Below are positions 4,335-58,690 of a stretch of 64,000 bases of DNA, piece by piece (within the stretch, counting starts at the first letter, position 1; every line of letters starts with the position of its first letter). Location of the stretch: assembly GCA_004764695.1 (NCBI GenBank), contig SMSO01000031.1, positions 6,877,261 through 6,941,260 of the forward strand. Reading direction: 5' to 3'. The notes beneath the pieces were generated by a model that worked only from the letters and a program-made list of their open reading frames with translations, was not told the DNA's origin and searched no databases. Source of the DNA: Schizochytrium sp. TIO01. Lineage: Eukaryota; Sar; Bigyra; Thraustochytrida; Thraustochytriidae. The position numbers were made by a program, and so were the translations under genes.

Positions 4335-5418
4335 GGTGCTTGAGAGTACGTGATAATACTCTCAAGCTAACAGTTCGTTTAGATGTAGTACACCGCTACT
4401 CAGGCAAGCCCGAGCGTGAGCGCACGACCGCGCGAAACCAAAAGGAACAAGCAGATTTGCCACACAACAATGGCAAACAACCTTAGCAGCTGTATTTAAT
4501 ATAACGCTCTCACGGCGCCAACTTAATTGTTCTTCACCTCGTTTAGTTCACTATTTGCATATATCTATGTATGTCTGTATTAGTGCACACTGCTCAATAA
4601 CTTGGCCTGTGTCCATGAGTAAATACCATGAATGACCTCGCCTTAGGTTTCTTGTTGAGAGTACCCATAACCCATATACGTGTTGTACGAGGTCTATTCC
4701 TCTTCGTGGGTATGTATTACCTACCCCTTTCAGTGCCAGTCTCTGTAAGCAGAACAAGAAAGCAACCCACCCAGGTGTCCGTTGAACCTTCAGATTGGGA
4801 AAGGAGGTTATAATTTTTGTTGGAATATTTCAATCTAAAATAATCAGTAGGGATCTGGTACAGGCACTTACCTACCTAGTAGCTACCTACCAGTTTTGGC
4901 TGAGTACTCAATGATCATCAGAAAGAGAGCAAAGCACAGAAAGAAACAGAGATGTTTTTATGGTAACAATCCACGATGACGGAAAGCTCAGGTACGTGAA
5001 ACCATGGAAAAACATCAAACCTACCACTAACAAGAGGGTCTAATCAGCCTATTAAAAATTATCATACCATATGGTGCCGTAATATGATGGAAATGCAGAA
5101 CCACACTCGCATTAGTCAGATGTAATGAGTTAAAATCTTTTTAGCTTGGTAAGAACTTAAGCCAAGACAGAAACAACAAAAGTCACGGTATTACAGTATC
5201 AATGTAAAAGTGAGGCCTAACACTTTAAGGTTTAGTTTTCCCTGCATATAAGAATAAAGCGATCGGAAAGTTCTGATGAATTGAATATAACGCAGTGATT
5301 ACTTTTCTGCACTGAGGTTGCAGGATTAGATCATGGCCAAGGGTTTTCCGAACCATTCACAAGGATATCCTCGTATAACCACGATGCTCCTAGAGCACAA
5401 TTTATTTGATTTTTTCAC
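4335..5418. other. divergent intergenic region between SPAG16 and RecQ
   Basis: This 1.08-kb stretch lies between two outward-facing genes and should carry both promoters. It contains a cluster of ACCTACC-type repeats around 4868-4895 but no supported gene. No TATA box could be assigned with confidence. Confidence 0.5.
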
Positions 5419-8224
5419 ATGAATCCTTCCCGTGTTCCGCGTGCACAGAATCGTGCAACTTCGGACCAGACCAGAACCCCCACCCTGAGTTTGAGGCCTT
5501 CTGTAACAGGAACCACGATTCCACTGGGCAGCAACGCCATGAACTCTGCCAATACCTATGCCCACTCAGCCCTGACTGAAACCTTGAAGAAGAGGTTTGG
5601 CTTTGACGGATTCCGCAAGGGTCAAGACGTCGCCGTGAAAGGCTTTCTCGAGGAAAAACGCGATGTGGCAATCTTTTGGGCCACAGGTGGTGGTAAAAGT
5701 CTTTGTTATCAGCTTCCTGCTCTACATGCGTGGGATAATAGAGCATTGACTGGAAATCGGGAGTTCTTGGTGGTTGTAAGTCCTTTGGTGTCTCTAATGC
5801 AAGATCAAGTTCATGCTCTCAATGCTACAGTACGGGCTGAGAATGAACCTAACCTGGCTACCTTCCTGGGATCAGGTCAATCTGACGCAAGCGCAGAGGG
5901 ACATGCTCTTCGGGGAGACTTTGCACTAGTTTATGTGAGCCCCGAAAAGTTGCTTTCTTTCGGATTTCTAGATGCACTTGCCAGAGTTCAGAGCCAGGTC
6001 CTGGGGTTTGCGATCGACGAGGCTCACTGCGTTAGTGAATGGGGTTCTGATTTTCGACAGGAATATGCAAAACTTGGTCGTATTCGTGAACAGATGCCTG
6101 GAATTCCAATTATGGCCTTGACAGCAACAGCATCTCCGCACATCCGGGGTGATGTAATTCAGAAACTCAAGTTCAAGAACACACTATTGTGCAAGGGCTC
6201 ATTTGACCGCCCCAACCTCTACATATCTGTCAAGCGCCGGCCTTCTGTTGGGGAAGCTGCGCGCGAAGTTGCAAATACATACACGAAGAGCCCGGGTGCA
6301 ACAATTGTCTACGTCCCAACCACGAAAGGTGTAGAAGAGTTTGCGTACATGTTGAAGTCAATTTTGGGAAATGAGTTTGTTGGACTATATCACGCTAAAC
6401 TCTCAATGAATCATCGTGATGAGACACACAATCAGTTTTTGACTGGTGAGGTTCCTATTATTGTAGCCACTGTTGCTTTTGGCATGGGTATTGACAAACC
6501 TGATGTCCGTCGTGTGGTACATTTTGGTCCGCCTAAAACATTCGAAGCCTATGTGCAGCAGATTGGTCGTGCAGGGCGTGACGGCCTTAAGTCATATTGC
6601 ACTCTATACCAGCTTTCATCAGACTTCACAAAATATAGCTCAGACTTTTACGTAGGGTCTCTTTCCCCTGAAGCTCGGAAGATTACACTAGAAAGTACTG
6701 CCCGTCTTGAAAAGTTCTGCGATACGCCAATGTGCCGCCGGTATCAGATTCTCAAGGCTTTTGAAGAGCCTGAACCAGACTGGGGAAGGTCTTGTGGTGA
6801 TTGCGATGTCTGTCGTCTCTATGACCGATCTTCGTCCCAAGGTTTGCAAGCTCCTCAATCTTCAAAACGCGATTTCACAACACCTGTATTGTCTCTACTA
6901 AGTGTCATTGGTGGTAAAGGTTCTTCTATGACTAAACTTGTTTCTGCAGCATCCAAGTTGCAAAAATCAGAAAGCACAAAGCGTTATACGCAAGATGAAC
7001 TTAAAGAGATTCTTGGTATGCTTGTTAGCGCCGGTTATGTGAAGACTGAAATTGTGAGCTTTACGTCTGGAGGTGGGAGCTATGGTAGCCATGCTACTGG
7101 AAACCGATGGTCTAAATCCGGCGCTGGCTACGGAGGCCAAGAACGGGATATCACCTACAAAAAGTACACTCTTACCTCCTCCGGAAAGGTGGCATTGGCA
7201 ACCGCGGCCCAGATTTGGCTTGTGCCGAGCCCGTACTTTATTGATCAAGAGGTTATTCAAAATGAAAAGGCTATGATGCGCCATGAAGAACTCCGTGCTC
7301 TAGGAGTAGACCCAGCTTTGGTTCCAGAGTCTGAAATAAGAAGCGGATCCGGCCCTTCGTACGATGGTTTTGTGCATTGGCATCGTACCTTGAATCAAGC
7401 AGAGAAGTCCGGTCGAATCGCCTATGTGGAGCAATTGCAAGAAATGCATCAAGCTATTATAGAGTGGCGTCAACAAGAAGCAAAGAGAGCCCAAACGGCA
7501 CCATCCACGATCATTCCAGACTACCTTGTGTGCAAACTTGCATATACCCGGCCAACAACTGTGGAAGCTTTGCGGTCTGTTGGCATTCCGTGTTGCAAAT
7601 TTGCAACCACTCGCCCAACTGATTGCTAGAAGATCGGAGGAAGTGGGTCTTCCCTCCACAGGATCTAAAAGAGTTCGAGGAGAGGGCTCTCACGACACTG
7701 AGTACGCTAAATTTCCCAGTGGAATGGTTAAACCACCAGTCAGATGGAAACTGGCCCCGAATGTTCAAGATAGGCGCAAACTCTTAGCTTGGGAACTGTC
7801 GTGCAATCAACTTGCTGAAGGACATACTCTGGAGTCTATAGCTTTGAAAGGGTCTACGAAGCCGCGCCAAGTTCGCACAATTGTCGTACACGTACTTCAA
7901 GGACTGCAACATGGGCTCGCTGCTGATCTTTCAGCGTTAGCAGATGCCGCCAACTTGAATCTTTCAAGAGCAGATTGGGACATGCTTGAGTCCACGGCAG
8001 TCGCTACAAAGTTTGATCCAAAAGAAGACAAAAGCGGTTCCTGGAAGGGCGATTTTGCTCGCCATGCCTTAGGCGAAGAGTTAATTACTAAAGCTGACAA
8101 GTCACCGGATGAATTAAATCGTGTTTCAGACTTTTATCAACATCTAGATTGGTGGTTGACTCTTCGCCGATGTGGGATTGTCCCTTCCTTCGTATCTACC
8201 TCCAAGCGGGGCAAAAGCTCATAG
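5419..8224 (+). CDS. RecQ-family DNA helicase with RQC, HRDC and C-terminal HTH (one frame change)
   Basis: This is an ATP-dependent 3'-5' DNA helicase of the RecQ family, acting in homologous recombination and replication repair. Visible motifs are Walker A ATGGGKS (residues 88-94), the DEAH box IDEAHC (199-204) with the aromatic-rich loop after it, motif III ALTATA (233-238), and motifs V-VI FGMGIDKPDVRRVVH and QQIGRAGRDG. The RecQ zinc cysteines follow (C439, C459, C462, C465), then an RQC winged-helix region and an HRDC domain. The first frame ends at TAG 7627-7629 inside HRDC. The plus-one frame gives a better HRDC end (ANLQPLAQLIARR) and about 190 more residues, including a probable HTH of the type at the end of bacterial and WRN-like RecQs (RRKLLAWELSCNQLAEGHTL). 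Joined length is about 934. The switch lies between about 7575 and 7630. A one-base indel is likeliest, but a very short GT-AG intron cannot be excluded. Subfamily (WRN, BLM or RecQ-like) is not settled. Confidence 0.92.
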
Positions 8225-14002: not shown

Positions 14003-15379
14003 GGTCACGAACTATCTATCTAAACTACAGTCTATCAGCAGGTTTCCAAGACCCGCCTCTAAATCTGATGATTATCCTTGCACCGAGCGCTTGCAGAAAT
14101 CCTCTGCAGAGATTTTCCTTTGGATTCTGAGCAGCGGTCCTCGTCTGCTGTAGTACTACAAGCTTTGTCTTCGCGTTGTCTGCGAAACCCATTTTCATTT
14201 TGTGTAAAACCCATTTTTACTCTGCCTCCTCCCGGAATTCCGCCTTTTAAAACTCAGGTGCACACCTTCCTCGATGCCTCGCTCTGGAGAGTTCATAGAC
14301 TAAAATATTGATGCATTTTATTTTTACAGAGCCCCCAATTCGAATGTGGTGATAAATACTACTTGTTTTGCACTTTTTATTTTAGACGGGAAGTTCTTGA
14401 TTGCCTTTTCGGTTTCAATTTTGGTTTTGAGTCCCTTTCTAGAGAGAGCAAACAAATAAATACATTAAAGTTAAAAAAATCTGAATTTGCTAAAAAGCTC
14501 TTGGCTCGGGTAACCTGAAATTTGCTCGTTGTGTTCGACAGATGCTCTTCTATTGCAATATATATAGCTCTATGATAGAGGTGTTTTGTTTTCTCAGCCA
14601 AGCTTGTGTTAGTGTCTCATATTTTAAATACTGACGATTTGATTTGCGAAACACATCGATGAGCAAACACCCTAACCTATCAATACCTCTTTTTAAATAG
14701 TTATAGCAAACATAGTCCGCAATAATATTATTTCTTTGAAAGCGAAGGGTCCAATCCTATTCTCTAGCGAAACCTTTTGGATGCGGTCTGCTCTAAACTC
14801 TTGCGTACGATCTTCTCGTAAAATCCCATTCTTTGATACGTCTAATTCAAAGATAAATAAGAGCTACGAGTCCTACCAACTAGCTAGTCCTACCAGGTAC
14901 CGTTCTCTTCCGACTAACCTAACCACCACCTCAACAAAAAAAATTGATTACAGCCTCCAAGTTGAATTCAATCAAATCTTTCTATACTGCTCCTCTGCCA
15001 CAAGCGCGAGACCATCAAGCAGTGAAAGAGCCCCTTGCAAGAATAAAGCTTGGTCGGTAGCAATTTCCATTGAGTGCAAATGGATATTTATTTTCTGATG
15101 TCAAACGAAGTCGTTGGCCATTCTCACCTGCCTCCGTTCTTTTCCATGGGATTGACAGTCATTTCTCACTGTTTCTAAAGTATGATTGAAAACATGAACA
15201 CGATTCAGAAATTTTAAAATATATTGATTCATAATTCGTCATCGGAGGGGCCATCAAAACCGATTTCGAGAGCGAAGTGGATTGAGCGTTGCGGCAGAGG
15301 CAGCGGGTCTCGGCCTGGCTCTGTGTCTGGGTGGAGATTGCTGGGGAGGTTCTGCTTCGCTGGGAAGAACTACTAGAAT
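14003..15379. other. divergent intergenic region, no supported gene
   Basis: This is the upstream region shared by the FTCDNL1-like and PHD-SET genes. It has AT-rich tracts around 14300-14720 and TCCTACCA motifs near 14872-14900. No coding region is supported. Confidence 0.5.
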
Positions 15380-18300
15380 ATGGCGGGTGGCAAGCGGTCT
15401 TCTGCGGCGCAGGGGTCTGCCACGGCGGAGGGTAGCGCCGCCCTGGAGGACGTACTACCTTCGGGTGCAGCATTCTGCGCTGTGTGTATGAGACCAGGCA
15501 TTGGTGGCGCTGCAAAAAGGTTTGAAGAGCGCGAACGCGTACTAGTGTGCACCAGCTGTGGCCATGGGGCTCATGCACGGTGCTTGGGACTCGTTTCGAA
15601 AACCCCACAAACTTCGAACGTAAACTCCGATGACGATGCTGCCAAGACATTCTGCTGCGATTCATGTGTGGCGCTCACTGGTGGCGGGGATAAGCCACGT
15701 AGGCTTGCAAAGGTCAAGCTCCAACGCTCCTGCCCACTCTGCCGCAGCGGTCTGCAGGGCGGCTTCATGGCAACGGCGGTACCTGCCGGGAATGTCGGAG
15801 CCGACGTCAAGAACAACAATGGTGAAGGTGACAAAAACGGTTCTGATGTGATGTTCGACGATGAAGACCTCGTATGGGTACATGTGAGCTGTGCCCAAGC
15901 TAATGATGCTGTTAAAATAGATAAGGGGCGACGAAGGGCGGATATTTCTGGGATTCCCCTCGACCGAACAGAACTCATGTGCGAGCTGTGTGGCAAGGGT
16001 GACACGCTTGGATGTATTACATGTGAATGCAAAAAAGCGGCATTTCATCCGACATGTGCTCTTGTGCTAGGGGCACAAAACGGCTATGAAGCTGACAAGT
16101 GTCCAAGCTGTGCAAGACACGCTGCCGTTCTGAACCAAAGAAAACCATTTGTCGAGGCCTTGGAGAAATTTGAGGTCATCTCGACAACAGAGAGAGAGTT
16201 TCTGACAAATGTAATCAATGATGGCAAGTGTGATCGCTCGCCGTTTCAATCTGCCTTGATGAGGCTTAAAGCAATTGATCGCGTTGCCGACAAGACCTTT
16301 CTCACGGTCATGCGCGATCTAGTCACATTTCCTGGAGAGAGGTCGAAGGAAGAAAAGGTCGCCTTTTGCAGCCGAGTATCAGCGCATCACAAGTACCGGC
16401 AAAACGCCGGCTGCAGCTGTTAAACTATTTAACCAGATCATACCAGACGAAGACGAAGGTCGTATTATGGCTGAAGTTGCCGCTGCAACTTTGCAGTGTA
16501 ACATGGCATCAGCACGTCGCAACCGCCCTCGGTTTCCAGGATTTAAGGACTCGCCCGTGCTCTATTTCGATGTTGAATGTTTTGCGAATGAGGCTAAGAA
16601 CGTGTTTGAGCTTTCGCCAGACTCAGAGAGGTTGACTGTTCAGTTGATAGTACGTACGGCTGCTAGGCAAATTGAAGAGCTGTTGCTTTCTAAAATCTTT
16701 GTGGTTGGTGTTGCTGAGCGGGCTCGTACTTTACTGGCTAGTAGCGGAGCCTTAGACACTTTTGATGAGGCTTCGTCTGGAAGCACTCCTAAACGTGCAG
16801 CCAGCAAAAAAAGACGTAAAAGCGCAACTAACAGTGGCCGAAAAAATGGAGTGGCTGCTTCAGCCGACGAAAATGGTGACGATGATTCCAACATCAAAGA
16901 TGAGGATGACATCAGTCTTTTCAAACTCGAGGGTTATGAGGTCCGCATGACCAATCAAACGGCATATGGTGTCTTTTCCCGGATCGGCAAGGAGCTCGAG
17001 CACAATGCAACTGTAGAGCCTTATTTGAACGGTAAATGGAACAAAGCGCCATACCCACGCCGCCCATACGAAGAGATTTCAGAGTATGCACCAACTCCTG
17101 GACTAAGTGCTAGTGAGCAACAAGAAGTCCTTGGTATCCTTGAAACTACCAAGCGTCCTGAGTGCGACCAATCAGATCTTTGCGCGAAAGTTGTACCTTT
17201 TGATCTTGCGAGAAACTGCTTCGAAACATCCGCACGCTGTATGTCTCGTCGGGTTGGATGCCCTCGTACAGCGGTTGGTTCCCACCAGCCTTTGAAGATG
17301 GGACAGCAGGTACAGGTTACCGACATGTGGGGTCTCGATTGTTATACACGCCGCAACGTACAGACGGTACTTCGAATGGCTGCTGGTTTCGAGACCGAGC
17401 AGCTTCAACGAAACTTCTTACAGAGGATTCTTCTTCCCGCTATTGATGCCCAACCTTCGCACAGAGCGCATAATTTAGTTAATGCCATGCGTTCGATTCT
17501 GCACGCTGTTGGCAAGGAGCCAAGCAACACTCCCAATGACGGGGCGACCTCCTCATCAACAACACAGGAGTCTCGTCCCCCCGTTCCTTTAGATGATATC
17601 CCAACCTTTGAATCCGACTACACCCCAGATGACCGACCAGAAGTGTCCTCAAAGGTTGCCCAAATTGTTACAAAGGCAATTGCTACCACGTCTGATCTTA
17701 CAATCGGCCGCGTGCGAAGTGGTGCAATTTGTCTTCTGTTCGCTGTGCGTAATTGGGGCCTGAACGCTTTTCGCGTACACCCAAAGGGTGTGGGCGTGCA
17801 GTGCATTAAAGATGGTGGTTTGCCATCGGGCACCTTTGTTACGGAATACCTTGGTGAACTATTTGCCCCATGGCGTTGGTTTGAGAAACAGGACGCTATC
17901 AAGAATGCACAGAAAAAATGCCGGTTTAAGCCAATTCTCCCTGATTTCTATAACATTATGATGGAACGTCATGAAGATGACGAGGAAGGCTACGATGTCG
18001 CTTATATTGACCCTATCGTACGTGGTAATTATGCGTCTCGCCTTAGCCACAGTTGCGAGCCCAACTGTGCTACAGTTGTCATGGTTGTTGATGGTCATTA
18101 TGTAGTGACTGTTTATACTTTGCGCGATATAGGTTTTGGAGAAGAGCTCACCTTTGATTATTCGTCTGTTACTGAGGATGAAAATGAGTTCAAAGCTGCA
18201 ACCTGCTTATGCGGTTCTTTGGGTTGTCGTGGCTCATTTCTTTATTATGCTGGTGTTGGTGCATTCGCCCAAGTTCTTGCTGACGAGCAGACGTTCTTGC

Positions 18301-20327
18301 ATCGTAATGCCTTAGTGTATCAAGCGTGCGCCGATCCTGTTCTGAAACCAGAGGATGAGTCCCGTTTGGCTCGCTCTGGTATTAAAAAGGCTGCGCTGCG
18401 TGATAGTCCTAGCTGGCTCGCGAAATGGACTTCGCTTGTTCTCGCCTATGCTGAACGCGAACGTGATGAGCTAGCTCATCGGTTATGTTTGACAACCTTC
18501 CGGGATCGCCTCACCTACACTGACCAGCAGGCTCGCTTACAAGCTGCTGGTGTACTGGAAAATCGCGTTCAAAATGTGGTTATCACTTTGAATAAGCTTC
18601 GCCATTTCTTCACTGCAGAACGTGCAACGGGTAGCTCATCTCGTGATTCTGTTGGCATCGGGAGTATGCCGTTATCTGAAATTCCTTCCCCAGTACGCAA
18701 GTTGACTCCAGAGGAATTGGTAGATATTCTCTGGGCATGGGATGATTCTCATGCACAGGTTGCCATCAACGGTTTCCTGCGCTTACCTGTTGCGAAGGAT
18801 AAACGTTATAGTTCACAGGTGGCGCAAGTAACAACCATGCAGAAAAAGCTAGCTTCTGGGTCGGTAACAAACTATGATCAAGTCCGAGGATGCCTCCTAG
18901 AACTGCGCAATGTTTTTTGGAGTGTGCCAGTTTGCCAATGTACTTCGGCAGGAGATCTTCTCACTTGGATTTTGCACACGAAACACTTTTTTACGGCAGT
19001 TACTTACCCAGGTATGCGTTCTACAAAGATTGTTGTTCGGAATGTGGATATTGGCCGAGACGGAAGTGTTGTTGGGTCCACGCAACCCAACAAATCATTA
19101 ACTAAATCTCCTGCCAAGTCTCCAGCAGCGGTCGAAGCTGCTATTACTGCCAAAGCAGCAAAGGAGCAGACACAAGTTCGTTGCAAACGTGTGAAACGAA
19201 GCAGCAAGAGTGGCCAACCCGCTTCAGTGGAAGGCGAAGACTCCTTGTGGATGGCTGTAGCACCAGAGACTATCACTGCACCAACCGCTGCTGTTGCTAG
19301 TCCACCAGAACACAAGCTTGGCTTTGAACCTTCACATCGAACGCCTGGACCTTTGTTGCTACCATACTGGTACGGCGTCGAGAGAAATGGTACCGTTGTA
19401 TTATCTGCTGCAGAATCTGATAATTTCACCTCTATATCTTTCGAAATCGATGCAGGCAAACCATACTTGCGTTCGCTTAAACTTGCCGCTGAGGACCTGA
19501 AAGAGTCAGCAACTGCTCAAAAGTATTTTGTATTGACCATCCCAATGCCAGGATGTATTCCTGTCTACATTTATCGGCCTATGCTTGCTGGACCTATACC
19601 CGGGGCAAGCTTAAGCCCTGTGGAAGAAAACGCAAAGGTGATGATGTCTACTACTCGCTTAGTAGTCGACTCGCCAATTCGTCCTAATCCGGTTGATGGC
19701 ATTCGTTGGGAAAATATTGGTCTTGTCTATGCCTTCGATGTCCCCTTACCTGGCACAGACCAGTTTTCAGCGCTGGATCAAGAAGGCTGTTTGATCACTC
19801 TTTACGCATTTTCAGAAGAGACCTTTTCCAATCGAGTACGCTTCCTGCAACCAGGCGAAACTTTCCATAATAAGGCGAGTTCGCCGCAAACCACAGCCAT
19901 CCCTAAGGCGATTGACCCATTGGAGGCAGTCCTAGAAGAAGAGAAAAAGTACCAATCTGGTTATATCTGGGGGCAGATGTCAGGTTGGTTTAAACAAACT
20001 GTAGCGTCGCCAGATGCTAGTTTGTCTGCAGAACGTCGTGGTACACTTTCGTTGCCCGACATGCAGTGCTGTTTTAGTGCAACGTCTTATAAAGATCGTC
20101 AGGCTATTGTTGATCGTGTTTCAAAGCAACCAGAGGCGATGTGGCCTACAGGTTCACACTGGTCATTTAAGAACAAACGGAAAATATATGGGTCTCCATG
20201 GCTTGATGATATTGTTGAGCCAGAACTGCACCATACTGATGCAATTTTGCAAGCTATGGAATTTCATATGCAGCACAAGGTGCCGCCACCTCCATCAGCG
20301 TTTAACAAGGATGCAGCGATGGCGTGA
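15380..20327 (+). CDS. PHD-SET histone lysine methyltransferase, ATXR3/SDG2-like (one frameshift)
   Basis: This is a probable nuclear chromatin methyltransferase of about 1,648 residues once two frames are joined. The first frame (15380-16423) carries a PHD-type zinc finger (AFCAVC, LVCTSCGHGAH, CPLC) and an extended PHD (VHVSCAQ, MCELCGKGDTLGC, FHPTCALVLG). It stops at TAA 16421-16423. The plus-one frame is open from 16323 and runs to 20327. Removing one A from 16401-16404 gives KYRQTPAAAVKLF across the join. The SET domain is at about residues 795-950: TEYLGELF, NYASRLSHSCEPNC (the AdoMet-pocket motif, with Ser where Asn is usual), GEELTFDYS and post-SET CLCGSLGCRGS. The long C-terminal part with TYPGMRS and WYGVERNG blocks resembles plant ATXR3, an H3K4 methyltransferase. 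Substrate is inferred from that resemblance only. Confidence 0.85.
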
Positions 20328-44677: not shown

Positions 44678-47600
44678 CTATGCCCGAACTGTATTCATCG
44701 GCTCGTCGTCGTATTCATCCTCACTAGACTCGTTGACACCCCCGCCTGTATCATCGTCACTGCCGTTATCACTATCATCGTCATCACTATTGTCATTAAA
44801 GTTAGTGATGTATGCGCTGACTGGGGCGCCGCGGCCTATACCAGCAACCGCACTTGCAGTAGAGCGCACGGCGGATGATGCACCACCAGAGGCGCCGCTA
44901 CTCATTCCATAGTCGTTGTCAATAGCACTCGGAACAATAGATTGGGAAGCACGACGGTCAAGGATAACTGTATCTGGGTCATCTTTTTCCTGCCGAAGTC
45001 GATATATTTTGACAGCAAAGACAGCAAAAATGATAGCTAGCAAACAGCTCGCGCCAATCACCATGTAGACAATTGGGTTAGTTTTGGTTTCTTCTGAAGA
45101 TGAAGACAAATTATTTCCAGAAGGAGCCAGGGTGATACTTCCTTCGTTCGAGGAGCCCGAATCAGTCCCGTTAGTGGCATCGTCACAGGGTTGATCTGTA
45201 AGCACGGCTTCGAATAAAGCAGTTTCAGCAGCAGTGATGCTGAGGTTGGCAAGTTTGAGAAGATTTCTAGAAAGTGGAGTAAGGCATGATGCTCCCACAG
45301 TGCATGAAAGCACCTTTTGCCATGAACCAGGTGTTCCGGCCTCAGGCAGTGCAGCTGCAGATGCAAATTTATCAGCACATTCGTCTGTGTCTGTAAGTGC
45401 ATCTGCTGGAAGCCAAAGAATCAGATTGTCCAGAATGCCTCCTGATTTGTACAAAAGTTCAAGCAAATCAGCTTTACTAGCGGTAGTCAGCTGACAAATA
45501 CTCTCAATGCCTGCATCAACTCCATCAGGAAAAAGTTGCCCAATCAATGGAAGTTGATTTTTGTAAGCCTGAATTAGAAGCTCAAGACAGGAACCTTCAT
45601 TTACACATGCAGTACTCTTATCTGCCAATGATGTCATACATGTCTCATCGTCGATATCTACCATGTTGAGCACAAGTTCCATTAACTCAGGCCAATAGGT
45701 ATTTAGAGTTTTTATCATTACGTCCATGTCTGACAACGAACTTGCGTACAGGTCTGTGTAGTTGCAGATTTCATGAATGATTTGAGAAGTCTTGCTAGGA
45801 AGGAAGGGGCCCCACAGAGGTAAGGTTTCAAGACCGTTTGTAAGGGAATCGATACATGTGTCGCTGATATGGCACAAACTTTTGACAGGGGCAAGAATGT
45901 ATCCGGTAGTATTCACAATGTCTAAAGAGAAACGCTCTAGCTGAGTTGCACAACTGGTATCCCCTGTGATACTTTGAGTTACAATATACATGAGTTTGCT
46001 CAAAGTATTCTCAACAAACTCTTTCCAGGTTGACGTTTCTGCTGCAAACTCACAAATGCCATCAAAAAGAGGAGACAACCCCTTTGGAATGTAATCTCCA
46101 ACCAGAGGTAAAGTCTCAAGTCCATCACTCAATTGAGCAACACATGTTGCGTTTTGACACATTGTTGATACAGAGATGTCACTAATTTGCTCAAGCCATG
46201 TTTCACAGTTCGTATCAACACCAGCCATAAGTCCTGCAATTTGTAGAAGAATGGGCCCCTCTTTTGCAAGGTACGTAGAAAGTGAAGCGCGATTTACTAC
46301 ATCATCGTCAGCCATGAGGTCGCAGGTATCTTTGATTAATGTTTCAACATCGTTCGGAACATATAGGCCAACATATGGCAAGTTCTGCAGCTTTGCTGCT
46401 ACTTCAGCAAGACAGGTCGCATTTGGGACCTTTGTGCATAAGGTATCTGCATCAATTGCCCCACCCCGGCTTTTAAAGAGGGCGGCAACATCCTCAACTT
46501 GACTCGTACACGAGGTGTCCAGGTCTAACAAAGATGCTGTCGATGACAATAATTGGGGAATAGCCTCAAGAGCAACGTCTCTCGATGTAGCGTTCATGAT
46601 AATACATGTTGTACTGAGAACTTCACCGGTACGTGGGTGCAAATATTCATTTACCACAGGCATCGTTGTTAGCTTTGCGCATGCGTATTGGATGCAGTTA
46701 GGGCTGACTTCTGAGCAAAACGGGTACATTCTAAAGGCGTCACTATTTTCCTCTGCGTAGGAAATTAACATTGTACCGCATCCAAGTGACGAAGTATTAG
46801 CAGTCGAAAGAAGACGCCCATCTCCTGGGGCAACCTCATCACCAAGAACTTTGCCAAGCAAGAGTAGAACCCTAGGTAGCATGCGAATAAATGCACTGTT
46901 TGCAGTTTCAGAGATCTCGAGATAGTCGCTTCCGCGTACTTCTGATTGTAGGACACATGCATCGTTAAGAATACTTGGAATGCTGTCCGGAATGTATTGA
47001 CCAACAAGAGGAAGTTCTTGTAGAGCATCAATTACGTTGCTGGTACAATTATTTGACAGGAGACACAGGTTGCGAATGTTTACACTGCCCGTGCGTTTAT
47101 TCACAACGTAATCCTCGATCTGGGTCTGGCACGAGCCACTAATGTCGAGGTGGCCCCCAATGATGATTTTACCAAGTAGTTCGATTATAGTAGGGACATG
47201 CTCCATTAAAGAGGAGATACTATCACCGTCTTTCAATACTCCGCACAGTGCTCCAATAAGTTGATCGGTTCCAATCGGTAGATAATCTCCGATGAAAGGG
47301 ATACTACTGAGTGTTTTTACAACTTCAGTTGTGCATTCAGATGACATTCCCGTGCAAAACATCTCTGCATCGAAGTCTTCAACCAAAATACTCGACTTGA
47401 TCTCCGCTGCACATGTGTCCGAAGGATACCCCAGCATAAACGCGAGGATATCTAGTAGTGACCCGAGGTAGGGCAAGAGGGCAAAAATGGTTTCGTCGCC
47501 TGATGTCAAGACTTCGCACCCAGTCACAAGGAGTTCGCTAATACCATCAGGTGCAAGGCTCGGCAAATTATTCGCCAACTCCTGGACACACTGTGTACCA

Positions 47601-50600
47601 AGGCTCGTACAAATCTTTAGCGGGGTTGTCGTGTCAACATCCTTGGATGCGCAAGTGCTATTTGAATCTTCAAAGACAGTCTGAATGATAACCGGGAGGT
47701 AAGTTTCAATAAAGTCTGCCATTGACCCATCGCCTGATTGTACGGCACACAAATCAACAACTACGTCAGAGGCCCATGAAGGAATGAACTTGCCTAGCAA
47801 CGGCAGAGCTGAGAGTTTAGAAAAGTACTCTGCTAAGCAGTCATCCCCAATTGAGCAAAGGTTAGATACATTGACAGGCAAAAGGCAGCTATCTTGAACA
47901 CCTGCTATAATTCCAGCATTTCTCATGAGAACAGGCATGTCGGTTTTAAGGAACGACTCTTCATCAATGTCACTATCTTGAAACAGTTTACAGCCACTGT
48001 CAAGACTATCAATGAAAGCTTCAACAACACCATCTGGTATGTGTTCCCCAATGTATTCAATTTCTTCGAGTTTGTCATTAAGCTCCAGGACACAAGCTCT
48101 CACTTCATCTGAAGATTCACAGACAAATGTTACTCCATCAATCTCAGTTGTTGCATCGGAGCTGAGGGGCACAACAGACTCCAAAACTGTCAAACAGGTG
48201 TCGCTCACTTGAGGAGCAAGATCTTCTATGAAAGGCATGCTTTTCATTGTTCTGAGCGCATCAATAAAGTCTGGGATTTTAAAAATAAACTCAGATAAAT
48301 TGATGCCTTCCATGCCTGTTGCAATATCATTCATCATTTCGCAGGCCTCAATAACTACGTCGTAAATAAGCTTCTTAACATAAGCCTCCAGAGAATCATA
48401 TTCTCCATCTGTAGCTACTTCAAAAATACTACGGACTTGCGAAATTGTATCAAGTTGGTGTGCAATGTAAACAATGCAATCATTGCCATCATCATCTAGG
48501 CCACAAACGGTGGTGATAATTGCATCTGATGTGTCAATTTCCTCGGCAAATGAGTCAACAACCTCAAGACACTCACTTTTAAATGTTGGAACGTATTCAC
48601 TAATGACAGGAAAGCTATTAAGCTCTTCCATGATATGCAAAATGTCACTCAGAGAATACATAATTGAAGACGCAGTGATTTCAGCAATTTCATCCAGTAG
48701 CGAGCAGGCGTACTCCCTAATGTCAAAAGCACTGTCCACCATGGTACTTAATGAATAGTTGCCTCCCAGTGAAGAGGATAAAGATGACATCAGAGGGATC
48801 GCTACAATGGCGTGGCCGGCTTCGCGAAAACATGCCCCCTCTGCTTCATTGAATGAACACAAAATAGATGTAAGGCCAGAAAAGTCAATACTGCCGAATA
48901 TATTCACGAGACCCATCTCATTCACAATTGCTGCTCCGTTTTCGAGTTTTGCGGTGATATTAACAGCAAACAGGGTCTTACACTCGGAGGAGATTACTGG
49001 AATATAAGATGACAGAAAATCCATCTCCTCCAGTTGGCTAAGAATCGTGATTAGATCTGGTAGCGCAGATACAAAGCCAAGATAGTCTGTATCTTCAGTA
49101 GAAAGCCAAAGAGGGCACGCGGTCGTTTCCATGAGGCTAATTACGTTACTCATCAGCCCCTCCGGGATAGTGTCGGAAACCAATGGAAGCTGCTCAATTG
49201 CGGTCGATGCTTTCCGAAGGCAGGCAAATTCAGAAGAGGTAGCTTCACAAATTTCATCAGGAAGCATGTCAACGGAAACTTCACTAAAGCGACTGGCCAT
49301 GTCCTGCATTTCTGAGTGACATTCTGTGCCAATATCAACATCATAAAGCCCAAGAGAGCGTGCCACAACATCTACTTTTTCAAAAAGCACCATCAACTCG
49401 GGGAGATGGCGCAAAATATCAGTTGCCTCAATCGTACTAGAGCCAATGATCTCACAAACTGACGGAATAAGCTGGACTGTGGCGTTCAATAAATCCTCAA
49501 GGCCTGACGTGAAGTTTAGAATGTCGATAGATGCTCCAAGTTCAACAATACATGTTGTCTCAGAGGTTGTAAGACCACACATGACACTCACAGGGTCCAA
49601 TGTTTCTGACGTCAAGCGAGTAGTTAATTCCACAACGCTGGAAATACAAATATCTGGAACCCATGGTACATAGGCTTGTAAGGCTGGGTAACCATGAAGC
49701 TCTCGCAAAAGATCAAAGGCAGCTGGTAAAGCTGATATGATACCTTCAAAACTAATCTCCCCTAGCTCATCCATTGCTACGCACAGAATATCTGGCAGGG
49801 CATCCATAACTGTGCGCACGAGGGATTGCCCAGAGACAGCCATTTCTTCGAGATCGCCGTAAAGGAAGTTGCGGAAAAACTCCGTTTCCTCGAGGTTGTC
49901 GCCAAGAAGTGCGATGCATTCGCGATCGTCGTCAACCAGCAGACAGAGCTTCTGAGCTTTAAAGTTGGTCAACAATGCACTAATACGAGGATAGGAGATG
50001 TCCGTGCAGTTTCCACCTGGGATTTGTGGGAAATAATCTTCAAAAAGCGAGGGAGCCAATCGATTTGCAAGATCAATTGCATACAAAATTGTATCGAGAT
50101 GGCCCAAAATAGATGTAATATCAACATCGGTGTCATAAGACAGTGCAGCACACGCAGCGTCGAGTGGATCACCGAGTAATGTACTAATTAGGTCATCACG
50201 TCCTAGCATCGAATTCACAAAACTAATATCCTCGATAGTGCTACCGAGGCTGCGAATGCAGACCTTGCCAGCATCTGTTATTCCTCCGCAAAGTATATCA
50301 AGGATATCTCCATTGTTGATCGCTGCTGCAATATCTTCCAGGACAGACTCTGTGCACTCTTCATCGGGAAATGCAGGCAAAAAGGTTGGCCCAACAGCAG
50401 TTGCCGCATCGGCATAGACTTGGGCAACGTCTGGGATACTAAGGATGGCTTCTGTGACATTCACATTACCTGTTTCATCTAGAACGCGTGCGATTACAGA
50501 GCAGATTCGTGGCATAATTTTCTGAGTAAAGGCAACAATGACAGTCTCAACAGAAAGGCTGGATAATCCAATAAGAGGGCTTTGATCAACTTGCGCTCCA

Positions 50601-53600
50601 ATATCTTGCAAACAGGATTCCAGGTCACTATTATCAAGCACTAGGAGACAAATAGTATGCGGAAGAAGTGCAATATTGTCATCAGAGGCCGAAAGGGAAC
50701 TTTGCACATCTGCAATGCTTGTATGGTACTCATCTGCACAAGTATCATCAATAGTTGGAATGATTCCCTGGAAAACCTTATACTGGCTCAGTTGCTGAAG
50801 AATACTCACCATTTTGTCCAGAGCAATAAAGACATTATCAAGAATGTCAACACCTTCTACGATGCTACAAACACTTGGTAATGAGGCGAGCAGGGTTGTT
50901 ACCAGGGTCTTGATGTTATCAGGGTCATCCGTTTCTAGTTGCTGAGCTGCAAGATTGGCAATAACTGTAACATCAAGAATGCTGTCAACCATGCTAACAA
51001 TGCAAGTACTTTCGTCACTTGTGATGCCGCAAGTTCCCTCAATTGCGCCATCTTCTTCAAAACGGGGAATGAGGGATGATTTGAAAAGTGCTGAGCAATC
51101 ATCGTCGATGTCAGGAATATACTCACTCAATGCGTCAATTTCATGAAGTTGATCAAGAAGATCGAGGACATAAGGTAAACTCGAGATAATCGAGTTGTAG
51201 TCAAAGGTACCTAACTCGTCCACTAGCGCGCATGCTGTTGGAAGCGTATCAACAACAGCCGCAGCAACTCCATCTTCAATCACCAAAGGCCAAGAAATTT
51301 CTCGAAAGCACTGTTGCGTTGCGTTTGTCATATTGCACAATACTCCTGGAACACCAGTCACTCCAACAGGTGACAAAGTTTCTGCAAGGTCTTTATAGTT
51401 TTCCATGCATGCATCACTTACATCTGGTAGGTAGGGCTCCACGAAAGAAACGTCACGCAGGGCGTCAAACAGAGATATCACTGTAGGGAGATAGGTCAGA
51501 ATTTCATCAGCAGAAGGAAAAGAACCACTTTCATCAAAAAGCGCACATAAGAGAGGGAGCAACTTCAAAAGGTCGAGCGCGATGGATTCTGCATCAGGAA
51601 CAATGCCAGCAATCCATTCAACCTCTGAAAGACTGTAACCTAGGTCAGCAAGACAAGCTTGACCTTCGGAGGTAATAGCACAAAGGGTGCTCGCAACGGC
51701 CTCCTCAAGAGAGCTATCTGATGAGCCACTATTGCTATTTTCCACAGCCGTAGCAAGGCTAGCTGTAATGGAAGGAATCTCGCTAGTGCACGAGCTTGGG
51801 ATATCAGGAATGTATGGATCCAAGAGCGTGAAGTTGTTAAGTTTCTCCAGTATGGAAAGTGCTGTTGGAATTTGATCCGATAGCTTGGTGAGTTCCATTT
51901 GCTCGATATTCTCTACTGCCTCACAAGCCTCGACGCGGACAGTAGTGACAGCATATCGCAAGAGCCCACGTCCTCCGATAAGCTCCCTTAGCATCTCAAC
52001 ATCATCTACGCTATCTCCAATTAAGGCAAAGCATTCTGCTTCCTCACTGTCAAGGTCACAGATAGCTAGCGGCTGAGGGTTTGCCACAAATTTGGCTGCT
52101 GCACTTTCGTACGAGCTATCACAGGTGTCATGAGGAATATCAGGAATGTAATTCGCAACTGTTGAGGGCATTGACTCTTTGAGATCGGTCATGAAATGAA
52201 GAATTTGTGGAAGTTTACCAATCAGGTTGGTGACATCAATCGAGTCAAAATCAGAGCCAATAATAGAACACGCAGTTGGGATTTGGGTTTGAATGAGATC
52301 TTGAAGGAAATTATCTTCAATACCGATAGCTTCCTGCAAGGCATCAGCATTATCAATTCCATCCCCAATTGCAACAAGACAATTCTTCTCCTTAGCTGTG
52401 AGCCCCTCGCAAAGAATGTTGAGCGCGGTAGTCGGTTCGTTTACGATTTGTAAGAGTTGAGATTGTACGTCAGCAAGAACTGTGCTTGAGCAGTTTTCTG
52501 TGGGAAATTCTGGCATGTAATCTTCGAGAAAGCTTGGAATCAAATCACTGGATCGGAGGCCAGAATACCACGTGATGATCTCAGGAAGTTTGCTAATGAT
52601 GAACTCGATAGAGTCCACCATCGAGTCTTCTGGCGCAAGAATTGAGCATGCGCTAGGCAACAGCGTATTTGGAATAGCTTGAATCAATCCAGTAGATCCG
52701 AGCAAATTAACCAGAAAAGGTGTAGCATCAATTTGGTCACCAAGGTCTGCAAGGCACTCGTAGTACCCAGCACTCTTCCAAGAAACACACATCTCGTTAA
52801 TAAGTTGTGAGAAAGTCACTTCACCGTCATCAAGAAAGTTGTATATATCCTTGGCAATTGTCTGAAATCCTTTTCGGCAAGTTGCATTTCGAGGGATTTG
52901 AGGCAAATAGTTTTGCAGTGGATACACGCTGGTTGAAGTATCCGAACCATCTGTACTTACGGAAGTCAGCGAGTCAAACAAAGTCAAGAGTGATGGTAAA
53001 GACTCCAACAGCTTATCAACAGAAAATTCACCTGCAGTATTTCGGATATCTTTGCAGACTTGCGGCACAATGTCCTCTACAATAAGCTCTAAAGTACCCT
53101 TACCAATCTGCTCACGTACAAATGCGATCTTGTCGAGAGCTCTGGATAGCTTCACAAGGCATGGCATCTTGGAAAATCTAGCACAGATGTGTGTTATAAC
53201 TTGGGTGTCCTCTCCATCGATAACTTGCGCAATCCATGTACCATACGCAGCAAATTGTTTGCTGCAGGTTTTGTCTTGAAGCAATGTGTGAATGCTTGGA
53301 AACTGTTCTCGCAATGGAATAATATCCAGGGCTGTAATCGCATTCAGAAGTACAGGAAAAGCTGCCACAAGGTCTCCGACATCAATACTTGAGCCATGAA
53401 TAGCTGTGCAAAGCTCGGGAAAAGGTCGTAAAAGAGTACATAGAATGTTGCATTTGGTCCAACTGTTGAGACTGTTGAACTAAATAGGGACTTTACTAGA
53501 CTGCTAGTTTCTAGAGACTCTCCGATTGCAAGCATGCATGACTGAGTTGCACCAGATGATAGGGTGCATAGTTTCGCAGGCAAAATATCAGTTTGCTCAA

Positions 53601-55534
53601 TACCAAGCAGAAGATCATTGGTGAGATTTTGAACTACAGCTGAAGTACATTGTTCAGAAGGCCACTTAGGGATATATGACTGAAAAACAGAGATGGAGCT
53701 AACCGACTCGTACCATTCAACAATGGCTGGTAGCTGCGCAAGGATTGTTTGTACACTAAGTTCATCTTCAGAAAGAATAGTATTTGTAATGTCGCACGCT
53801 TCCGGTAGAGTTTCTGTAATAACAGTTCTTAATGTTCCTTCTCCTAATGAGGCTACTCCAAGTTGATCGATACCGTCAGAGAGCTCCACAAAACAGTCAT
53901 TGTTGCTAACTTTGTCACTACAAACAAGCTTGATCATACCCGTCGTGTCATCCAAAACATCCTCTACATCTTCGGCGAGGTCAGCAAAATCTTCAGCGCA
54001 GTCTATTAGAGCTTCGTGGACGCCAGGTAAAATTGAGGATAGAACATCAAGACTGAGTTTCTTGTAAACGCGGAGAAGGAGCGGCAATTGACTGAAAATA
54101 GCATCAACGGAGAGCGAACTTACATCAGCAAATGCTTCACAAAGTGAAGGGAGAACCTCATCTCCAAGTTCGTGTAGGTAGCCATTGCCTAGAGATTCAG
54201 CCATCCAGTCGATATCATCAATATTTTGTGCAATCAAGGTAATGCAATCAATGACCGTTGTTTCACCAAGAGCGTCGCAAATAGCTGACGGGATTTCGCT
54301 TGAAGAAGCTGCATCGGGGCCAAATACTGTATTGTATGCCCTAGTAGCAGCATTAGCAAGTGGTGCGTCGCAGTTGGTAGGGATAGAGGGGAGGTAATCA
54401 TTAATGAGATCCCAGGATAGTAAAGTGCTAAATACATTCAGAAGCCTCTCTAATTTTGTCGTACTAGTACCTGAAACTAATGTGAAGAGGTCTTCCCAAC
54501 TATCCAAAAACGTTAACAAAGAACCATCGCTAAGGAGACCAATTTGACGGAAATTGGCACAGATTGAAGGAGTATCGAGGTAAATGGATTGAAGTAAAGA
54601 GTTAATTTGGGTCAGAATGTCGACAACATCCGTGGGTAGATATTTCTCAATTTGATCCACGAGGGGCAGTGCCACAATGACCAATAATTCCATCATGCAT
54701 CCCCTGAAAACAGCAGTATTCATGCAAATTGCTTTGGGGTAGTAGAACACAGCTTCATCGCCATAACTGGAGTAAACGGAGAACTGGGTGGCAGTTGCTG
54801 CGCACGATTTGGTGGAGATAAGTCCAGCTATGCCATCTAGGTCCTTCAAAAGGTCGATAAAATTAGGAATCTCGCTGAGCCAGTCGTCGATAGTCCATGA
54901 CCCATCTGCAAGTGTTTGCACCTTCTCTAGCAAGTTGCAAGTTTCTTCCATGGTCATACCGTTTAAAGCAAGAGAGATAGACCAACAAACCCATTCTGTA
55001 GTGCACTCTCCTGTGGTTGTATCGCACACGATGGGGAATTCAAATAGCTCTCGAGCACCTGCAGGACGTTCATGTCTTGTTGCTGCTAAGGTTGCTGGTC
55101 GCTCAATGACCGGGTTTAGGGCAGTGTCATAGCCCTCACTGCGTAGATGCCTAGCCACATCTGGAGAGATGTAGTACGGAAGTACCATAGATTCTTCCTC
55201 CAATGTCATATCCACATTGATCTTAGCGGGATAGCGTTCACGAAAACTGTTACGAAGGCGTCCAGCGAATGCCGCCTTTGCGCGTTCTACGCTGATCTCG
55301 GTGTCCAAGTTAAGTGCGCCCCTTATATCTAATGTTTCCATCTTCAAGATGCCGAGAGGCTACAGCAAATTCAGCTAAGACCGCGCCGAAGTTAACATAT
55401 CCATCAGAATGCGAAAACTCTCGATTATAAGTTCGTCTCACTGGGCCTGGGTTACCTGCAGCCAAACCTATTCCTGCTGCGCTGATGATTAGAGCTATTC
55501 CAAGCAAAAGAGCTCGGGTGCCCAAGGCCCTCAT
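44678..55534 (-). CDS. giant cysteine-repeat type I membrane protein (two compensating frameshifts)
   Basis: Three open segments form one protein of about 3,618 residues once two single-base shifts are corrected (C-run 55319-55322 and GGGAAAA at 53417-53423). It starts with a signal peptide (MRALGTRALLLGIALIISAA, ATG at 55534). About 30 tandem helical repeats follow, each with four cysteines. Twenty N-terminal repeats of about 115-126 residues have a C-x8-C pair (variants x7 to x11), then a Cys after an LPxhC motif, and a last Cys after YIPxIP. About ten C-terminal repeats of about 80-100 residues have a C-x5/6-C pair and an LPLVGxYIP block. A single membrane helix (YMVIGASCLLAIIFAVFAV, near 45000-45075) and a tail of about 110 residues with an Asp/Glu/Ser-rich run follow. 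The stop is TAG at 44680-44678. The layout predicts a disulfide-bonded surface or secretory-pathway protein. The repeats differ in spacing from elicitins and saposins, and I do not recognise the family. Confidence 0.82.
45170..47860 (-). repeat. short-type four-Cys repeats of the giant protein
   Basis: About ten repeats of about 80-100 codons carry cysteine pairs such as LCSIGDDC, FCTGMSSEC, LCLLSNNC and LCHISDTC. Each pair is followed about 12 residues later by an LPLVGxYIP-type block, then a lone Cys and a Cys near the unit end. They are highly diverged at DNA level, so the duplications are old. Confidence 0.8.
47861..55030 (-). repeat. long-type four-Cys repeats of the giant protein
   Basis: About twenty repeats are present. 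Two measured units are 126 and 117 residues. In the first the cysteines are 11, 36, 52 and 27 positions apart, the last distance reaching the next unit. Typical pairs are TCGITSDESTC, LCGGITDAGKVC and MCGLTTSETTC, and typical ends are YIPDIPHDTC and YLPDVSDAC. Confidence 0.8.
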
Positions 55535-56008
55535 CCTGAGTTTCTTTGACACCGAACCCCGTAAGGTATGTATGTGTAAGAACTCGAGGCAGAGCCTGAC
55601 GTCTTTGCTGCTGCCTATCACTTGGCAGCTGCCAATGCTGTTTGGCCACTTTCAGAGAGCTTTGCCTCGTGGCCCAGCAACTTGCCGTAACAAATCTTGT
55701 TTGGGATTCTCAAAAGAGTAGTGAGGTAAGCTTGGGCTGCCGTCGTGAGATCCCCCTTCTTCATGAAAGGAACTCCCCTCTCATAGTCTCTACAGCAACG
55801 GTCTTTTGCACAACCCATTTTCACTTGCAACTCCATGTGTACTCCCTCTCTCTCTTTCACGTTCTCCTACGTTCTCCTACTCTATCATTTTCTATTACCC
55901 TCCTGCTTTTTATAAATTAAAATTTTAATTTCAACTAAAAAAATAGACATTAAATTGAAATAAAAAAATAAATAAAAAATACTGTGACAGAGAATCAGAG
56001 AAAAGAAA

Positions 56009-56043
<35 letters not shown>

Positions 56044-57115
56044 AAAAGATTGACTTTGATCGCTCTAATACTAACATGCATGAAAAGATTTCTACGTATC
56101 AAACGAATAAAGAAAGTCAAAGTGGGAAATCTTAACTCTGAGAAAGCGCAAGAGGCTCAAAAAGGTGAATGAATGAGTATGGCTATCGTGATGATATAAC
56201 TTGTATGATCCATGATTGTTACAAGATTGCAACCTCAACGATTGAGGCTGTTGATATCTCGCTTGCTTGCTTCAGAAGTTCGTTGCTTCAGGTGCCTGGC
56301 TGGCTTTGCATTCTACGACTCCGGATTAAACGTGGGCATATCGCTATCATTTACATTGACGTGCTGGTTTTGATGAAGCCTAAATAGTTACATCACATAA
56401 CTTTAGAGACACGCACGGAGAAGTCCGTTTTCGAGGTGAGAGGATTCATGTACGGCGCGTCTCTAGAGTAGAGTTTTATGCGCTTCAGACTTCATTACAT
56501 AGTTATGGTCCACGACAACAACAGGCGGCACGTGTGCAACACAGAATACGTAATCCTCTACCCGGCACTCCAATGGTTTTCATTCTTGCCCTCAGCGCAT
56601 GATATCTATCTATTTGTCCATCTGTCTATCTACACAATCGTTTTGCAAGAGCGTCTTAAAGCTGCCACCACGGCCAAGAACTCAACAGTCAACTCAACAA
56701 GCTTCGAAAGCGATGGGTGAATTCTGTATGGGAAGCCTGAACTCAGCTTGCAATTGCTTCCAGCCGCTCGCTGCGACGTGTCGGCGAGGAGCTCCCACCG
56801 GCACCAAAGATCATCGTGGAGGCGGCCTTATCCATTCCCCGCCCGGAGAGGAGCTCCAAACACCGCTATTTCTTTCTCCACCAAACTAAACAAAGGGCGC
56901 AACTTGGCATTCCATTCCTCCTTTATTCATTCTTCCTACCTCTCTCCGCTCAGCTGTTATGTATCAATCGTATCATAGACGTTCCCTCCCTCCAAAGCTC
57001 GCTTCGTTCGCCGCGAACGAATGAAGGAGCACCAGGCGGGCTTCAAACAACCAGAGCGATGGAATTGGCCAAACTTCAATTTTATTTATAACACTAACCC
57101 GCACCTCTCATGAAA

Positions 57116-57156
57116 TGAATGAATGAATGAATGAATGAATGAATGAATGAATGAAT
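57116..57156. repeat. (GAAT)n microsatellite
   Basis: About ten perfect GAAT units. Confidence 0.95.
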
Positions 57157-57256
57157 AGGAGTTCTGCCAACTTTGTTTTCTGCTAACTTATTTACTTTCT
57201 TACTTACCGACTCTATATCAAACTGCCTTTCGGATTCGGAAGGAGGATCGCAAAGC

Positions 57257-57500
57257 AAATTAAAGCAAAGCAAAGCAAAGCAAAGCAAATTAAAGCAAAG
57301 CAAAGTAAAGCAAAGCAAAGTAAAGCAAAGTAAAGCAAATCAAATCAAAGCAAATCAAATCAAATCAAATCAAATCAAATCAAATCAAATCAAATCAAAT
57401 CAAATCAAATCAAATCAAATCAAATCAAATCAAATCAAATCAAATCAAATCAAATCAAATCAAATCAAATCAAATCAAATCAAATCAAATCAAAGCAAGG
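57257..57500. repeat. pentanucleotide array, AAAGC/AAAGT grading into (CAAAT)n
   Basis: The left part alternates CAAAG, TAAAG and TTAAAG units. From about 57336 it becomes a nearly perfect (CAAAT)n array of about 30 units, then CAAAG/CACAG units at the right edge. A chain of ORFs crosses it (QIKSN repeats), which is an artefact because a pentamer cycles through all frames. Confidence 0.95.
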
Positions 57501-57845
57501 CACAGCAAAGCACAGCAAAGCACAGCACAGCAACGCTGTTGTCCATATTGGCGCTGCAGGTCGGTACAGTTGTCAGGACCGGCGCTGATTGAGACGGACC
57601 GAAACACACTTCTTTCATCATATGTGGCCACCCTATATGTAACCAACTACAGTCGCTGACGAAGAAGAAAGAAAGCGCCACCCTCGAAGAAGTTGAGCTT
57701 TCGCAGGATCGATTGATCGCACCGGTGGTTCTGTGCTGCCGGTCTCAGCTTGGCTTCTTCTGCAAGGTTGCGGACCTGTAGACATACCCGTGCGTGCATG
57801 GATAAAAGACGTTCAATACGTTCATCTGAGCCTGGAGGGCGAGAA

Positions 57846-57900
57846 CAAATGAATGAACGAATGAATGAATAAATCAATCGATCAATCGATCAATCGATCA
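57846..57900. repeat. GAAT followed by CGAT/CAAT tetranucleotide tract
   Basis: GAATGAAC and GAATGAATAA units run into a series of ATCGATCA units ending at about 57900. Confidence 0.8.
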
Positions 57901-58136
57901 AGAGCCTCGGCGGGAACGCCGCAGTTCTCGCAATTGCCGATAGAGAGGCCACATCGCGAAGGAATCGTGAGACAACTCGAGGCGAGGCCAGCTGTAGCTA
58001 GCTAGTTGAGACCAGAGTTGGACTTCTTGATCCTGGAATCAAAAGATGACGTCATTGGAGTTCTCGACACGCTCGAGATTTATCGGCGCGGAATCAATTC
58101 TGGTGCTTGCTCGAGATCGAGCTAGATGCCTCTCCA

Positions 58137-58192
<56 letters not shown>
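58137..58192. repeat. (TGAT)n microsatellite
   Basis: About thirteen TGAT units. Confidence 0.95.
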
Positions 58193-58283
58193 CATGCATT
58201 TGCATTCTGAGAATTCCACTCCGCGAGTGCGAGCCGAAGCAGGCAATTCGAGGACCAAATGCGAGCAACGCAATGTATTTACT

Positions 58284-58330
58284 GCAGGCAAGCAAGCAAG
58301 CAAGCCAGCAAGCAAGCAAGCGAGCAAGCA
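58284..58330. repeat. (CAAG)n imperfect microsatellite
   Basis: CAAG units interspersed with CCAG and CGAG variants. Confidence 0.85.
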
Positions 58331-58584
58331 TGCGAGCAAGTCAATGCGCAACCGAAGGTGGCACCATTTGCAATCTGAGCGTTACTGTGTCGGTGTACGG
58401 GTCCCGCGGTGCGTTTCGCAGCCAAAGAAATAAATTAATCAATCCTCGATGATGATCTAGACCTCGCACTGAGCGATCGGTCGTCGGTAGGCCTGTCTCG
58501 TGAGCCCTGTCTTCGAAGAGCCTCGAGGTGCCGACCAGCCAGCAAGGCAAGCGAACTCGCGAGGTCCTACGGTTCGAGAGACTC

Positions 58585-58690
58585 CAAAAAGCAAAGTAAA
58601 GCAAAGCAAAGCAAAGTAAAGCAACGCAATGCAAACAGAGCAGACAGAACAGAACAGAACAGAACAGAACAGAAAGGAAAGAAACCCTCG
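58585..58690. repeat. AAAGC and AGAAC pentanucleotide tracts
   Basis: AAAGCAAAGTAAAGC units are followed by five AGAAC units and A-rich sequence. Confidence 0.85.

Follow-up and report, generated by a model that had tools for sequence, protein, structure and literature searches.

The window analyzed here is a stretch of 64,000 nucleotides (nt) from Schizochytrium sp. TIO01 (contig SMSO01000031.1, positions 6,877,261 to 6,941,260), and it contains on its minus strand a giant cysteine-repeat gene running from an ATG at 55534 to a stop codon at 44678-44680. The four-cysteine repeat protein encoded there is real, and its module is, judging from the sequence, probably a new repeat family. We give an even chance to the reading that this one thraustochytrid gene makes a giant, probably type I membrane protein, a stiff acidic rod that would act as a tether or adhesin. 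A single gene requires two frame changes in the present assembly, near 55.32 and 53.42 kb, one of them very likely a base-call error. The parts of the gene, from the N-terminus to the C-terminus and all on the minus strand, are as follows.

55454 to 55534, minus strand: start codon and signal-peptide-like hydrophobic N-terminus, MRALGTRALLLGIALIISAAGIGLAAG (translation; hydropathy 2.41 over 19 residues).
55310 to 55441, minus strand: frame change 1, a one-base indel near the GGGG run at 55319-55322 or a short intron (overlapping frames; weak frame scoring).
54805 to 55318, minus strand: N-terminal region with a partial four-cysteine unit at its end (6.7 bits, a weak match to the profile).
53650 to 54804, minus strand: A-type units 1-3 (profile; leave-one-out scoring).
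53267 to 53649, minus strand: A-type unit 4, lying across frame change 2 (about 53.42 kb, beside a CCC run; two-frame profile score and frame scoring).
48197 to 53266, minus strand: A-type units 5-18, of 104-137 amino acids (aa) each, mean 121 (cysteines, profile, alignment, spacing).
47888 to 48196, minus strand: transitional unit (weak A-type match, 22.8 bits).
45187 to 47887, minus strand: ten B-type units, the first nine of 78-117 aa and the last with its fourth cysteine and no unit after it (alignment, lengths, comparison of the A and B profiles).
45011 to 45073, minus strand: the strongest membrane segment, IVYMVIGASCLLAIIFAVFAV (hydropathy 2.69).
44681 to 45010, minus strand: acidic C-terminal tail of 110 aa with 23 Asp or Glu (D/E) and nine Lys or Arg (K/R), presumed cytoplasmic (composition).

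The 29 four-cysteine units of the array comprise 18 of the long A type (about 121 aa), one that is transitional and ten of the shorter B type (about 93 aa). The four cysteines, C1 to C4, are kept in 29 of 29 units, and one unit has a fifth. The in-frame ectodomain cysteines, counted as 19 in the open reading frame (ORF) of 671 aa plus 103 in that of 2933 aa from residue 23 on, minus one in the membrane segment, number 121, which equals 29 × 4 plus four in the N-terminal remnant and one extra. A profile built from 17 A units recovers the A units and finds the C-terminal units more weakly, not all of them above threshold. Because this profile was trained on its own targets, leave-one-out scoring with hidden Markov models was carried out on the 17 of 18 A units that lie inside one frame, the eighteenth, which spans a frame change, being scored apart. 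All 17 scored between 17.4 and 75.3 bits, each above all 200 of its own shuffles, among which the highest score was 13.4. The C2-C3-C4-C1 spacing motif, whose ranges were chosen after the spacings had been seen, occurs 27 times; in 1000 shuffles it averaged 1.5 occurrences and never exceeded 6.

When the units were aligned, C1 to C4 and the next C1 were invariant in the 17 rows of the A alignment. In the ten rows of the B alignment, C1, C2, C3 and the next-C1 column were invariant and C4 was conserved in at least 90%, the fourth cysteine of the last, short unit being aligned in the end column. Comparison of the two profiles by hhalign gave a probability of 95.2% (E 2.5e-8), and from this sequence similarity the A and B units are judged homologous. 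Mean identity among the 17 A units is only 20.9% (11-33), and adjacent units are no more alike (21.0%), yet the four cysteines persist throughout, indicating that the array is old and that its cysteine pattern has been maintained. Amphipathicity at the helix period was found in 59 of 100 overlapping windows of the A profile; permuting the columns gave 15.7 ± 8.6, and none of the 500 permutations reached 59. An earlier reading of this DNA, made from the sequence only, had proposed about 30 helical four-cysteine repeats; the 29 units, the spacing motif and the helix periodicity of the A units bear this out, with the amendment that there are two sub-types, one long and one short.

The same sequence-only reading had given the protein about 3,618 residues, a figure that equals the whole span divided by three; the locus consists of three overlapping minus-strand ORFs in two frames, at 55310-55621, at 53344-55359 (671 aa between stops) and at 44678-53479 (2933 aa). 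Codon usage was scored after training on 7,358 codons taken from 12 stretches elsewhere in the window. Along the locus the score gave the frame order 2, 0, 2, apart from a few scattered windows that favored the third frame, and the best-scoring frame switched near 55.3-55.4 and 53.4 kb. The coding signal was clear along both long ORFs, where it crossed from one frame into the next without a gap, and weak over the first short ORF. Frame change 1 may be a one-base assembly error or a short intron; there are 21 GT-AG candidates at this position, one of which is 82 nt long (GTGAGA...TGTAG, 55360-55441).

Frame change 2 looks like a one-base assembly error. It falls inside A-type unit 4, which scores 36.9-40.2 bits in the 14 best readings that take both frames together, and 22.5 and 13.5 bits from either frame alone. 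The two-frame score hardly varies between switch points 53479 and 53422 and so cannot locate the site exactly; we assigned the change to the CCC run near 53,418 because, by eye, the P-x-x-C motif is then restored. An ordinary intron is disfavored here, as the best of the GT-AG candidates of at least 50 nt, out of 59 candidates within the unit, scores 30.7 bits. A tiny intron may be compatible with the unit score, three candidates of 20-29 nt, all among the best eight, scoring 34.6-38.1 bits, about equal to the frame shift. Because other genes of this genome are also split, assembly indels are the likeliest cause of the frame changes in the giant gene. Upstream of the gene, tandem repeats whose units measure 4-20 bases are densely clustered at 57114-58674, one array extending over about 280 bases.

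Over the 3,425 in-frame residues of the ectodomain, 517 D/E face 154 K/R, so that the region is strongly acidic, and 26 N-glycosylation sequons are present, with two more in the tail. Only five dibasic pairs were found in the same residues, and because they are so rare, regular cutting of the chain into units at dibasic sites is unlikely. For a type I arrangement, hydropathy gave a signal-like start and a membrane segment, the start lying in a different frame from the next ORF. The previously proposed signal peptide and acidic tail agree with the hydropathy of the N-terminus and the composition of the tail, and the evidence as a whole is consistent with the wider proposal of a giant secreted protein that is anchored in the membrane and made of helical cysteine repeats.

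We then consider whether the units resemble anything known. No convincing relative was found in Pfam, NCBIfam, the PDB sequences, or phages, viral contigs and prokaryote contigs, and such a repeat is not described in the open-access literature as judged from the titles and abstract openings of the top-ranked papers; the protein can be called undescribed only with respect to these collections and open-access papers. In the phages, tblastn gave no relative, and in the contigs, searched with six short peptide patterns, the viral set gave none and none of ten pattern matches in the prokaryote set was a relative. The earlier statement that the repeat matches no family holds in that the repeat profiles gave no convincing match in the libraries searched, although Dicistro_VP4 (PF11492) formally passes its cut-off with the whole protein (24.5 bits against 22.6, E 2.6e-5). 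This match was dropped because none of its stretches is significant alone; the best covers 24 of 57 profile positions, two of ten single B units match (best E 0.053), and the score is read as many weak repeats summed. Other single-unit Pfam matches among the A units, one member each with a best E of 0.028, were judged to be chance.

With the 2896-aa ORF as query, no PDB sequence matched at E up to 1. The A profile matched 22 PDB sequences at E up to 10, the best being transportin-1 (E 0.026, best stretch 10.3 bits), and the B profile matched five, with a best E of 0.22 and importin alpha at E 1.3. These matches, to transportin-1, a glucanase, importin alpha and others, are weak and short and were put down to chance or generic helix similarity.

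When the host genome (64.06 Mb, 37 contigs) was searched at an E threshold of 0.001, the 2896-aa ORF found no second locus; match counts from the searches of this genome are lower bounds. Nor was a paralogue found at E up to 10 with the 907-aa B region, a three-unit A stretch, the 667-aa ORF or one A unit, and the tail, used as query at the same threshold, matched the giant-gene locus and one other place (E 3.4).

The main rival to an anchored rod is that the protein is a saposin-like or other lipid-binding polyprotein, whose helical, disulfide-locked modules bind lipid or membrane for extracellular lipid uptake or transport; we consider this unlikely. Thraustochytrids are lipid-rich cells, the A units have helical periodicity with hydrophobic faces, and the cysteines, in their order and approximate spacing, are reminiscent of the inner four in saposins, which is a lead only. 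Saposin-like (SapB) domains (PF05184/PF03489) and tandem arrays of the prosaposin type consist of tandem, secreted, helical, disulfide-stabilized modules, features also predicted for the present protein. However, in a Pfam search open to E 10, whose filters remove most matches above E 0.1, none of the 17 A units and none of the ten B units matched SapB_1 (PF05184) or SapB_2 (PF03489). Searches of the host genome with PF03489 and PF05184 gave one sub-cut-off match each, away from the locus (E 5.3 and 1.1), the profiles being short, introns being ignored and no control genome passing the cut-off. The units have four cysteines instead of six in three nested disulfides, the outer pair of saposins being absent, and they continue for a further 30-60 residues after C4. 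The rarity of dibasic sites and the presence of a membrane anchor also set the protein apart from saposins and argue against a lipid-binding polyprotein. Membership of the saposin family was thus rejected on the profiles and the cysteines, although the units could still work similarly. In another alternative, which we regard as improbable, the protein would be a structural component of the wall or scale matrix, its cysteine units incorporated into the scale layer of sulfated polysaccharide instead of forming a free tether. The giant protein is of a secreted type, cysteine-rich and large, and part of the text of PMC11642839 describes thraustochytrid walls as non-cellulosic, with scales of sulfated polysaccharide and wall elements formed in the Golgi. 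Nevertheless, a released matrix component would not usually carry a membrane anchor and tail, and no polysaccharide-binding domain was matched in Pfam.

The frame changes bear on two further explanations, together with other points that weigh against a tether or adhesin. Two changes in one gene could signal decay, and with no second copy found in the host genome the locus might be a decaying gene or recent pseudogene from which the full-length protein is no longer made. This is quite improbable in our judgment, because frames of 2933 and 671 aa have stayed open with the four cysteines intact in every unit, and the RecQ-like, SDG2-like and PfaA-type genes described below are also broken, which points to assembly indels. 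That the locus holds two or three separate genes, as three ORFs in two frames and the weak coding signal of the first might suggest, is highly improbable: the break at about 53.42 kb lies inside unit 4, whose full score of 40.2 bits is reached only from both frames, and codon usage is continuous between the long frames. No HEAT/ARM match was found in Pfam, and the present unit is far longer than the short paired-helix repeats of HEAT/ARM solenoids and has four cysteines, but the weak matches of both profiles to karyopherin HEAT/ARM proteins may hint at an ordinary alpha-solenoid. A known adhesive or ligand-binding domain was likewise not found in Pfam. The signal and membrane calls come from hydropathy alone, and three weaker hydrophobic stretches inside the repeat units reach 1.91-2.06, so that a single pass is not proven; of the single membrane helix proposed earlier, what stands is the strongest segment.

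Under the tether or adhesin model, each unit would be a small bundle of alpha-helices stabilized by two disulfides, the likeliest pairs being C2-C3 and C1-C4. The loop between C2 and C3 is short, which makes a bond across it plausible and leaves C1 and C4 to pair. Stacked units would form a long rod, stiff and strongly acidic, that projects from the plasma membrane and passes through the scaly wall or extends beyond it, and the tail may connect this rod to the cell interior.

Among the other genes, two in the window show apparent frame changes as well. The RecQ-like helicase gene at 5410-8224 (plus strand), with DEAD, Helicase_C and RecQ_Zn_bind domains, changes frame between ORFs 5410-7629 and 7463-8224 (overlap 7463-7629), likely through an assembly indel; its continuity was joined by eye, the second ORF having no Pfam match. 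The SDG2-like gene at 15377-20327 (plus strand), with a PHD-like finger, SET and SDG2_C, consists of two overlapping ORFs with a frame change at 16323-16423, its continuity again being judged by eye. Elsewhere in the genome, a gene for an omega-3 polyunsaturated fatty acid synthase of the PfaA type exceeds the omega_3_PfaA cut-off and has a sequence of ketosynthase, acyltransferase and multiple acyl carrier protein domains, which we take to resemble thraustochytrid orfA and which marks the host as probably a thraustochytrid. In thraustochytrids this gene is normally one ORF; here it is broken at L021 4040-4554 (G000:C4 about 610.7-611.2 kb) into open frames of 1031 and 2172 aa, and the family profile matches both sides of the break. 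About 14 kb from it, on the opposite strand, lies a second open frame, of 2044 aa, with matches to the ketosynthase region. A further open frame of 5651 aa (G000:C3:857186-871321), which the ketosynthase part of the PfaA profile matches four times, is probably a giant modular polyketide or fatty-acid synthase. The ORF at 772-2025 of the window (plus strand) has an (AAG)n run encoding an arginine run, followed, by eye, by a sequence like a FYVE-type zinc finger and by ankyrin repeats. The GC content of the window is 0.453, and no tRNA or Rfam match was found in it.

In its overall design the protein is of a known kind, that of giant modular surface proteins. Apicomplexan oocyst wall and microneme proteins and other protist giants have a signal peptide, a long cysteine-repeat ectodomain and often one membrane helix, as is predicted for the present protein, whereas the giant protein has no Pfam match to EGF, apple, thrombospondin or other extracellular repeats. 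Thraustochytrids have a wall that bears scales, and they use the ectoplasmic net to attach and feed. For Aurantiochytrium limacinum, candidate proteins of the ectoplasmic network, listed only recently and untested according to the main text of PMC12221091, are lineage-restricted, and several have a predicted signal peptide, membrane or extracellular parts. They are proposed there for surface attachment structures; in that main text the word "repeat" is absent and "cysteine" occurs only in a method, and the abstract and section 9 mention no such array. One further reading, distinctly unlikely on the sequence evidence, is that the four-cysteine unit represents a new fold family confined to labyrinthulomycetes, with the giant protein as an anchored rod joining the cell to its substrate, scales or ectoplasmic net. 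Should the fold turn out to be saposin-like, the protein would instead be an unusual membrane-anchored lipid-binding array. As an anchored repeat protein of about 3,600 residues encoded at a single locus, it is a concrete, testable candidate for the thraustochytrid surface, and its four-cysteine repeat can seed a new domain family.

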